Origin: Planctomycetota bacterium
GTDB lineage: Bacteria; Planctomycetota; B15-G4; JADJEK01
NCBI GenBank assembly: GCA_016213895.1
Contig: JACQZJ010000027.1
Location: 1 to 47,070, forward strand
Direction of reading: 5' to 3'
Length of the DNA: 47,070 bases
This document shows positions 34,371 to 37,693 of the stretch, piece by piece. The position numbers and the translations under genes were made by a program. The notes beneath the pieces were generated by a model. It ran no database searches, was not told the origin of the DNA, and was given only the letters and a program-made list of their open reading frames with translations. How positions within the stretch are numbered: the stretch's first letter is position 1; every line of letters begins with the position of its first letter.

Positions 34371-34416
34371 GAGGCGCTCTTGCCCGCGCCGCGCGCGCGT
34401 GCTGTGCTGGAGGACG

Positions 34417-36861
34417 ATGTCTCGAAGGGGCGAGTTTCCGAACGAGGAGCAGCGGGCGATCGTGGAGGCGACCGGCGGGGCGCGGCTGATCCTCGCGCCG
34501 GCCGGCACCGGGAAGACGCTCGTCATGGCGGCGCGTCTGGCCCAGGCGGTGCTGGAGGGAGTTGCTCCGGAGCGCGCGCTGTGCGTGACCTTCACCAACC
34601 GGGCCGCCGCCGAGATGCGCGCGCGCGTGGCAGAGCGCCTGCCGCGGGAGGCGCAGCGCGTGCACGTGCGGACGTTCCACGGGCTGTGCGCCTGGATGCT
34701 GCGCCGCGACGCGCCGCTCCTTGGCCTGCCCCGCGACTTCGTGGTCTACGACGACCAGGACAGCGGCGAGCTGCTGGAGAGGATCCTGGCCGAACTCCCC
34801 GGCAAGCTGCGCGCGGAGCGGCCGGCGGACTTCTACCAGCGCCTCTCCAGCCGCAAGTCGAACGCGAGCGGCGACGAGCTGGCGCTCTTGCGCATCCCGC
34901 CGCTCTTCCTCGGCTCGGGCGAGGAGGCGGAGCGGCGCGCCGCGCAGCGCTACCACCTCATCCTCGCCGAGCGCCACGCGCTCGACTTCGCCGACCTGGT
35001 CTACCGGGTGCGCGCCCTGCTCTGCCTCGACGCGGGCGCGCGCGACTTCTGGGCCGCGCGCTTCGACTGGGTGCAGGTGGACGAGGTGCAGGATACGCAC
35101 CATTCCGAGTACGAAGTGATCCGCGCGCTGGCGCTCTGCCACCGCAACCTCGCGCTTTTCGGCGACGTCGATCAGACGATCTACGAGTGGCGCGGCTCGA
35201 ACCCCGCGGCCGTCATCGGCCGCTTCCGCGCCGAGTTCGACCCGGTGCGGCAGCACTTCCTCGCGCTCAACCACCGTTCGACCAAGCGCCTGCTGGCCGC
35301 GGCCGATTGCTTCGCCGCCACGTTCGCGGAGCGCAAGACGCGCCTCGTGCCCCACCCGGACCTCGAGGAGGGCGAGCCGATCGTGCGGCACCAGGCGCGC
35401 ACCGCGGCGGACGAGGCGCACTGGGTCGCGGCCCAGGCCGCGCGCCTGCGCCGCGCCGCGCCCGCGAGCCGCGTCGGCATCCTCGCGCGCACGCACCGGC
35501 GCCTCGCCTGCCTTTCCCAGGCGCTCGCCGCGGCGCGCGTGCCGCACGTCACCGTGGAGCAGTTCGAGTTCTTCCGGCGCCAGGAGATCAAGGACGCGGT
35601 GGCGCGGCTCAGGCTCGTCCTCAATCCGCACGACTCCGGGGCGCTGCGCCGCATCCTGGTGCGCCCGCCGAGCCGCCTGGGCGAGAAGGCGCTGGCCGAA
35701 CTCTACGAGCAGGGCGCTCCCGCCGGCCTGCGCCTGACCGATCTCGCGCTCATGGAGACGCACGAGCAAGGCGAGCCCTTCGCCGCGCTGCTCGCGGCGC
35801 TGGAGCGCGAGCAGGTCGTCGTCCTGGACGTGGAGACGACCGGCCTCTCCCCGGCCGAGGACGAGGTGGTCGAGATTGCCGCGCGCCGCGTCGGCCGTGA
35901 AGGGGTCGGCGCGGCCTTCCATCGGCTGCTCAGGCCGGCGCGGCCGGTGGGGGACTCACTTGCCATCCACGGCTGGTCGGACGAGTTCCTGGCGGCGAAC
36001 GGCGCCGACCCGGCCGTCGCCCTGAGGGAGTTCGCCGCGTTCGTTGGCGGCTGCCACCTCGCGGGCCACAACTTGCGCTTCGACCTGGCCATGCTCGGCC
36101 ACCACGGCGCGCGGCTCGGCGTGGCCCTCGAGCAGCGGCCGTGCAGCGACACGCTGGACGTCGCGCGGCGCCTGGTCAACGCGGACCGGTACGACCTGGC
36201 CACGCTCTGCCGGGTCCTCGGCCTGGACGCGCGTCCAGAGCACCGCGCCCAGGCCGACGCCGACGCGGCGGCCGCGCTCTTGCTTGCTCTCGAGCCCGCG
36301 CTGCGCGAGAACGGCGCCCGGCGCGCGGCGCTCGTCGCCAAGCACGGCCGGCGCTTCCTGCAGATCGCACGTTCCCTCGGGGAGTGGCGCGACGCCGCGC
36401 GCGCGACGCGTCCGGCGCTGCTGCTCGAGCGCGTTCTCGAGGAATCCGGCCTGCAAGCGTTCTATCGCCCCAGCCCGGGTCGCCTGGCGCACCTCGAGGA
36501 GCTGGTCGCTCTCTTCCGCCGGCGCGACGCCGAGGCGCTGCATCCGTGGACCGCCCTGCAGGAGCTGACCCAGTACGCCGCCCTCGCGCGCAACGTCGAT
36601 CACCTGCCCGAGGACGATCCGCGCATACCGGTGGTGACGGTGCATCAAGCCAAAGGGCTCGAGTTCGACGCCGTCTTCGTCGCCGGCCTGTGCGAGGGCG
36701 AGTTCCCCAGCTTACTGGCAGAGAGGGAGGGGCGCCTGGAGGAGGAGCGCAGGCTGTTCTACGTGGCCTTGACGCGCGCCCGCTCCCGCTTGTTCCTCTC
36801 CGGACACGAGGAGAACGACCAGGGCCGCAGGCGTGGGATGAGCCGTTTCTTCGCGGTTTGA
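34417..36861 (+). CDS. UvrD/PcrA-like helicase with a DEDDh exonuclease inserted in the 2B region
   Basis: The 814-residue protein has all SF1A helicase motifs: Walker A APAGTGKT (27-34, K33), Ia CVTFTNRAAAEMRARV, II DEVQD (222-226), III GDVDQTIYEWRGS, IV LNHRSTKRLL, V TVHQAKGLEFDAVF (from ~741) and VI LFYVALTRARSRLFLSG. Between motifs IV and V, residues ~467-630 form a complete DnaQ-like exonuclease: D471/E473 (VLDVETTGL), D556 (GHNLRFDLAML), H609 and D614 (HRAQADAD). The nuclease thus interrupts the helicase, apparently in subdomain 2B, with all five DEDDh residues kept. A 3'-5' helicase-nuclease in DNA repair is the natural reading. The ATG at 34417 is preferred over the GTG at 34399 because GGAGG precedes it. 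Confidence 0.88.
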   Translation: MSRRGEFPNEEQRAIVEATGGARLILAPAGTGKTLVMAARLAQAVLEGVAPERALCVTFTNRAAAEMRARVAERLPREAQRVHVRTFHGLCAWMLRRDAPLLGLPRDFVVYDDQDSGELLERILAELPGKLRAERPADFYQRLSSRKSNASGDELALLRIPPLFLGSGEEAERRAAQRYHLILAERHALDFADLVYRVRALLCLDAGARDFWAARFDWVQVDEVQDTHHSEYEVIRALALCHRNLALFGDVDQTIYEWRGSNPAAVIGRFRAEFDPVRQHFLALNHRSTKRLLAAADCFAATFAERKTRLVPHPDLEEGEPIVRHQARTAADEAHWVAAQAARLRRAAPASRVGILARTHRRLACLSQALAAARVPHVTVEQFEFFRRQEIKDAVARLRLVLNPHDSGALRRILVRPPSRLGEKALAELYEQGAPAGLRLTDLALMETHEQGEPFAALLAALEREQVVVLDVETTGLSPAEDEVVEIAARRVGREGVGAAFHRLLRPARPVGDSLAIHGWSDEFLAANGADPAVALREFAAFVGGCHLAGHNLRFDLAMLGHHGARLGVALEQRPCSDTLDVARRLVNADRYDLATLCRVLGLDARPEHRAQADADAAAALLLALEPALRENGARRAALVAKHGRRFLQIARSLGEWRDAARATRPALLLERVLEESGLQAFYRPSPGRLAHLEELVALFRRRDAEALHPWTALQELTQYAALARNVDHLPEDDPRIPVVTVHQAKGLEFDAVFVAGLCEGEFPSLLAEREGRLEEERRLFYVALTRARSRLFLSGHEENDQGRRRGMSRFFAV

Positions 36862-36978
36862 CGCGTTCCCCGGCAGGCGGCCAGACCCGCGGCGGCGGGC
36901 AGGGCGCGCGCAAAGCGCAGCGGGGGACCACGCATGAACGCGCGGGCCCCCGCTTGCTGCGAGCTGTTACCGCGAGGA

Positions 36979-37185
36979 CTAGAGGTCCTGCGGCCGCATC
37001 GTCGAGCGACGGTTCGCCTGAGTGCGCGTCGCCGCGCGATCGACGATCTCGTGAACTCGCTCGCTGATCGCTTCGAGCAGGTCGCCAGCGGCCATCAGGC
37101 CCTTGCCGCGGACCAACTCCTTGACCTTGCTCCCGACCACGAGCATGTCGCGCTTGCCCTTCTTCGCCTTCTTCTTGGCCGCCAT
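36979..37185 (-). CDS. Bacterial histone-fold protein with lysine-rich N-terminal tail
   Basis: A 68-residue protein with a basic tail (MAAKKKAKKGKRD) followed by a single histone fold. Helix 1 is VVGSKVKELVRGKG, helix 2 is AAGDLLEAISERVHEIVDRA, and the C-terminal block RTQANRRSTMRPQDL has the R-x-x-A-N-x-R-x-T-x-R-P-x-D-L pattern (N58, R60, T62, R64, P65, D67) of bacterial histones such as the Bdellovibrio protein and of DUF1931 relatives. Such proteins form dimers and bind DNA. The start is firm: GGAGGG lies 6 nt upstream of the ATG at 37185. A much longer frame continues upstream but overlaps the mod genes on the other strand and is rejected. It is convergent with the helicase gene and divergent from the molybdate operon. 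Confidence 0.88.
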   Translation of the reverse strand: MAAKKKAKKGKRDMLVVGSKVKELVRGKGLMAAGDLLEAISERVHEIVDRAATRTQANRRSTMRPQDL

Positions 37186-37276
37186 CTCAGCCCTCCAGTG
37201 TGTGTGATAGGGAAACTGACCCAGTGGATGTATGCGCGGGAAAGTAACTCCGCCGGACGGACGTGGCAAGTGCGTT

Positions 37277-37314
37277 TTGGCGAATTCTCGCATTCTGCTC
37301 GCGAGAATCGCCAA
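37277..37314. promoter_or_regulatory. Long inverted repeat in the histone/mod divergent region
   Basis: Arms 37277-37291 (TTGGCGAATTCTCGC) and 37301-37314 (GCGAGAATCGCCAA) pair over 14 bp with a single bulged A, around a 9-nt loop. It lies 92 bp upstream of the histone ATG and 163 bp upstream of the small membrane protein gene. No T-run follows in either direction. It could be an operator, a terminator of a short transcript, or a DNA-protein site; nothing in it matches a ModE box that I can recall. Confidence 0.4.
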
Positions 37315-37477: not shown

Positions 37478-37693
37478 ATGCCCCTCGTCTTCTGCATCGC
37501 GCCCGAGCCCGGATACGCGGTCGGTTGGTTCGCGCTCAGCCTGATCAACGCCGGCCTAGCGCAGAGCAAGAACCGCAGCGGCCTGGGCTGGTGGCTGGCT
37601 TCCGTGTTCCTCGGCCCGGTCGCCACGTTCTTCCTCGTCGCCTTCTGCGACAGGCTCGCCGCCGCCCCCGGGAAGCCGGAGCAGGACGCATGA
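37478..37693 (+). CDS. Small membrane protein at the head of the molybdate operon
   Basis: A 71-residue protein with two hydrophobic segments (residues ~10-25, GYAVGWFALSLINAGL; ~38-56, WWLASVFLGPVATFFLVAF) around a short polar loop QSKNRSGLG. A good Shine-Dalgarno (AAGGAG) precedes the ATG at 37478. Its last codon and stop overlap the modA start (ATGA), so the two are translationally coupled. Small proteins with the INAGLAQ-NRSGLGWW pattern occur in several bacteria from memory, without assigned function. A link to molybdate transport is inferred only from coupling. Confidence 0.7.
   Translation: MPLVFCIAPEPGYAVGWFALSLINAGLAQSKNRSGLGWWLASVFLGPVATFFLVAFCDRLAAAPGKPEQDA

Follow-up and report, generated by a model that had tools for sequence, protein, structure and literature searches.

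The locus at positions 36979..37185 (minus strand) of the window, the whole 47,070-nucleotide stretch of Planctomycetota DNA analysed here, raises the question of whether its short gene encodes a bacterial histone, of which type, and whether that protein is tied in function to the helicase-nuclease gene beside it. The coding sequence, stop codon included, translates into MAAKKKAKKGKRDMLVVGSKVKELVRGKGLMAAGDLLEAISERVHEIVDRAATRTQANRRSTMRPQDL*, which is 68 amino acids and a stop and agrees with the length, tail and terminal motif quoted in the initial annotation. The protein has a net charge of +9 and consists of a Lys-rich N-terminal tail, MAAKKKAKKGKRD (codons 1-13; 37147..37185, minus strand), with a net charge of +6 and predicted by AlphaFold2 to be disordered, followed by a histone fold (36982..37146, minus strand). 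Translation, the match to the histone HLp, a family profile, AlphaFold2 with Foldseek and signs of purifying selection were the evidence used to annotate it as a face-to-face (FtF) alpha3 histone.

Pfam and NCBIfam searches gave nothing usable for the window histone, the best being TAF at 0.06 together with a meaningless PigE match, and neither the PF00808 profile nor the PF09123 (DUF1931) profile matched it. Other members of the family reach histone profiles only at 0.003-0.01. PF09123 represents the doublet histones of Aquifex and Thermus, which have two histone folds per chain; the window histone shares with them a bacterial histone fold, and the PDB attaches the name DUF1931 to entry 9QT0, but the 68-amino-acid protein contains a single fold. 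The profile check proposed in the initial annotation, against bacterial histone and DUF1931 models, thus left the protein undetected, and the absence of a histone-profile hit had been named there as a reason to abandon the proposal. On its own this result would have led to that outcome, but it was overruled by a search of solved structures and by fold comparison.

Among the solved structures, phmmer found HLp, the FtF alpha3 histone of Leptospira perolatii (PDB 9QT0, 9QT1 and 9QT2; PMC12701072), at 1.3e-13, HBb or Bd0055, the bacterial dimer histone of Bdellovibrio (PDB 8CMP and 8FVX; PMC10627809, PMC11317129), at 0.0029, and HTkC, the archaeal FtF histone of Thermococcus kodakarensis (PDB 9F2C; PMC11390915), at 0.049. 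With a profile of 20 family members the values were 9.4e-28, 6.8e-13 and 6.7e-12, respectively. The AlphaFold2 monomer contains helices at residues 15-27 (alpha1) and 34-57 (alpha2) and a one-turn helix at 65-67 (truncated alpha3), with residues 1-15 disordered and a mean pLDDT of 73.8; the confidence of the model is moderate (pTM 0.48), for which the disordered tail and the small input of five sequences are partly responsible. The best PDB matches of this model in Foldseek were bacterial and archaeal histones, with HLp first (E 1.1e-3, TM 0.56), then HTkC and HBb, an unambiguous ranking in which the modest E value reflects the shortness of the chain. All three comparisons, of sequence, profile and fold, therefore place HLp, a proven FtF member, nearest to the window histone among the solved structures. 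The predicted helices and the fold matches agree on one histone fold, and together with the HLp match and the profile they bear out the proposal of a bacterial histone with a basic tail; the description of the fold as helix-strand-helix-strand-helix had to be corrected, since histone helices are joined by loops, not strands.

The alpha3 histones are defined by a truncated alpha3, and their FtF subtype by a torus-shaped, closed homotetramer in which R48, N52, R54, T56 and D61 (profile numbering) are conserved (Schwab et al., PMC11390915). In the window histone alpha3 comprises three residues and the protein ends at residue 68, a truncation typical of FtF alpha3 histones, whose alpha3 has 3-4 residues, and different from the long alpha3, of about 10 residues, of nucleosomal histones. 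The conserved FtF positions are occupied by R54, N58, R60, T62 and D67, with R54 and N58 (R48 and N52 of the profile) at the interface, R60/D67 as the RD clamp and T62 in the loop. According to the conservation table, R54, N58, R60 and D67 are identical in all 26 homologues, and T62 is Thr in 25 of them; R-x3-N-x-R-x-[TI] was found in 37/37 homologues readable to the end in a second, overlapping set. The RxTxxxxD motif reads R60-S-T62-M-R-P-Q-D67, and the DNA-binding lysines of alpha1 are represented by K20 and K22, each of which is Lys in 24 of the 26 homologues and Arg in the other two. In HLp, R49, N53 and R55 lie in the tetramer interface, and R55-D62 forms the clamp (Hu et al., PMC12701072). 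By analogy, the window protein is most likely an FtF alpha3 histone forming a tetramer that would wrap about 60 bp.

A different reading, that of a bacterial dimer histone which bends DNA as a dimer and forms no tetramer, draws on HBb, a homologue detectable by both phmmer and the profile, which also has a single histone fold, the same truncated alpha3 and the RxTxxxxD motif. Nevertheless, bacterial dimer histones lack R48 and N52 (Schwab et al., PMC11390915), the dimer-dimer residues, and these are present in the window histone as R54 and N58, whereas HBb, known only as a dimer, has S and D at these positions. Given also that every measure places HLp much nearer, a dimer histone is quite improbable here.

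The likeness to HLp extends to size, the truncated alpha3, the alpha1 lysines, an N-terminal tail, the tetramer residues and the RD clamp. The residues that contact DNA in HLp include S14, K15, K17 and K21 (PMC12701072), which correspond to S19, K20, K22 and R26 of the window histone; the DNA-contacting loop residue T27 of HLp is replaced by Ala (A32), which counts against a full likeness. The window histone also differs in having a more strongly basic tail and other gene neighbours, the HLp gene being adjacent to SMC and MAP. With HTkC it shares the histone fold with a short alpha3 and, probably, the FtF type of tetramer, although HTkC is archaeal and more remote in sequence, and archaeal FtF histones are generally tailless, unlike the window histone.

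The HLp tetramer wraps about 60 bp of DNA and binds non-specifically (PMC12701072). On this model, two chains of the window histone would form a handshake dimer, and R54/N58, together with the C-terminal turn, would link two such dimers at both ends to close the tetramer. A DNA segment of about 60 bp could then pass round the basic rim of the tetramer regardless of its sequence; the alpha1 lysines and loop residues would hold it, while the tail would probably add loose, non-specific electrostatic contacts. For the other role raised initially, that the tail may be modified, no evidence emerged in either direction; the tail is short and differs between lineages.

The initial annotation had suggested a role as a nucleoid protein and recommended a search for HU/IHF in the same genome. 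An HU-family protein was found to be encoded elsewhere in this genome (C33:21251-21514, 4.3e-27) and in 57 of the 58 genomes in the set of relatives, indicating that the histone works beside HU and does not replace it; no second histone was found in the genome. This differs from Leptospira, which lacks HU (PMC12701072). A role in the nucleoid is thus likely from the homology to HLp, but not in place of HU. The gene, the fold, the family, the signature residues, their conservation and the presence of HU were observed or computed directly, and the tetramer, the wrapping, the abundance and the role of the tail are suggested by homology. Taken together, they make it very probable that the window encodes a chromosomal FtF alpha3 histone with a short Lys-rich N-terminal tail, which would act as a DNA-wrapping tetramer and an additional nucleoid-associated protein alongside HU.

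The proposal that the histone lies next to a helicase-nuclease gene was correct as to position. The neighbour (34399..36861, plus strand) encodes a helicase of the UvrD/PcrA type, the UvrD_C region of which is interrupted by a DnaQ-like (RNase_T) exonuclease domain (residues 474-628), as identified with Pfam and NCBIfam; none of the 25 NCBIfam models listed attains its cut-off for this protein. A UvrD-exonuclease gene adjoins the histone gene only in two near relatives, G001 (where the gene is partial) and G002, both of family f1; in G003, a third member of f1, the histone gene is cut off by the end of the contig. In the six members of the sister family f2 (L039, L040, L041, L042, L044 and L045) a DUF6687 gene lies closely downstream of a tailless histone gene on the same strand, an arrangement which suggests that the two may be co-transcribed, and in other families unrelated genes adjoin the histone.

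The retained adjacency in G001 and G002 could indicate a locus-specific or repair-linked DNA-binding protein that partners the UvrD-exonuclease and has no general packaging role. However, the two genes converge and are separated by a hairpin, the neighbour changes from one family to another, and binding by HLp is non-specific (PMC12701072), so that such a partnership is very unlikely, marginally more so than a dimer histone. Because the genes are convergent and their adjacency is limited to two near relatives, a functional link has no support beyond family f1, and the helicase-nuclease is not part of the histone system. The packaging histone proposed above is encoded in a transcription unit of its own, convergent with the helicase gene and divergent from a small ORF (37478..37693), also conserved in near relatives, from which it is separated by a gap of about 290 nt.

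The signals around the gene are consistent with this organization. A Shine-Dalgarno sequence, GGAGGG (37191..37196, minus strand), is located 5 nt upstream of the ATG, in agreement with the strong ribosome site noted initially, and is kept, together with the upstream region, in a genome of the same genus. A candidate sigma-70-type promoter, TTGCCA-17 nt-TACTTT (37241..37269, minus strand), was read by eye and scored under the threshold of a simple promoter scan, and both of its hexamers are identical in the same-genus genome; with the gap to the divergent ORF, it makes the divergent promoter region of the initial annotation a fair description. Directly upstream of the candidate -35 is an inverted repeat, ATTCTCGC-N9-GCGAGAAT (37284..37308), whose arms are partly retained in the same-genus genome. 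No other copies were detected genome-wide within 3 mismatches when a regulon was considered, and the repeat is possibly a private operator of the histone gene. The GC-rich inverted repeat between the convergent 3' ends (36919..36954), which has a similar counterpart in the same-genus genome, is a probable shared terminator or transcript-end hairpin. No Rfam families were found in the window.

The same-genus histone is 91% identical, with 10 synonymous and 6 non-synonymous codon changes (dN 0.050, dS 0.346, NG86; dN/dS of about 0.14), and the gene is under purifying selection. This pattern of codon changes, along with homologues in 31 of the 58 genomes of relatives (its own genome counted), identifies 36979..37185 as a true gene and not a chance ORF. 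It lies within a 668-codon open frame, a by-product of DNA with 71% GC and the only ground for supposing a chance or decayed ORF, a reading of negligible probability that is already refuted by the homologues with their invariant signature residues, the dN/dS value and the conserved ribosome site.

The tail varies between lineages. Basic tails of 13-15 residues were found in family f1 and of 13-24 residues in f3, whereas all six f2 members, from the same order, lack a tail and have MADKE-type starts with a net charge of -1 to -2; these lengths are approximate, as starts were picked by hand or with a simple ribosome-site rule, which for the f2 member G012 gave a longer start than the one chosen by hand. 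The tail is thus labile, present or absent within one order, which is mildly new. The longest tail was observed in L065 (G290), an FtF histone with a 54-residue, Lys/Thr-rich, linker-histone-like extension with a net charge of +30. Tails of bacterial FtF histones are common, mostly positive and show no sequence conservation (Schwab et al., PMC11390915). It could be speculated, although this is rather unlikely, that in this phylum a wrapping FtF histone and HU constitute a two-component chromatin with an evolutionarily tuned tail, whose share in compaction is possibly regulated; such a regulated contribution in bacteria would be comparable to that of eukaryotic tails.

The window histone is real, functionally plausible and largely expected, since it belongs to a published class: the FtF alpha3 histones, positively charged bacterial tails and the presence of histones in Planctomycetota have all been reported, and the persistence of histones in this phylum was already noted (Hocher et al., PMC10627809). 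The additions made here are modest, namely the co-occurrence of histone and HU in almost all relatives checked, the presence or absence of the tail within a single order, and the conservation of the upstream region. Structural and functional characterisation exists for just two bacterial histones, HBb and HLp (PMC12701072). A lineage that has both an FtF histone and HU, with close relatives that carry or lack the Lys tail, would offer a direct test of the role of the tail and would also show how an FtF histone and HU share the work.

Within the set of relatives, the histone was present in 12 of the 14 genomes of the same order; a DNA-level look-up among genome contigs recovered four relatives only, fewer than the whole-genome search. 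Across the phylum, 125 of 294 sampled genomes had a histone match, although some of the weaker matches may represent other alpha3 types, and among well-assembled genomes the count was 79 of 154. The view that histones are rare in bacteria consequently holds for bacteria overall but not for this phylum. Two or three histone matches each, the second often much weaker, were detected in G073, G025, G018, G088, G178, G279 and G288, suggesting that several genomes of the phylum hold more than one alpha3 type per cell.
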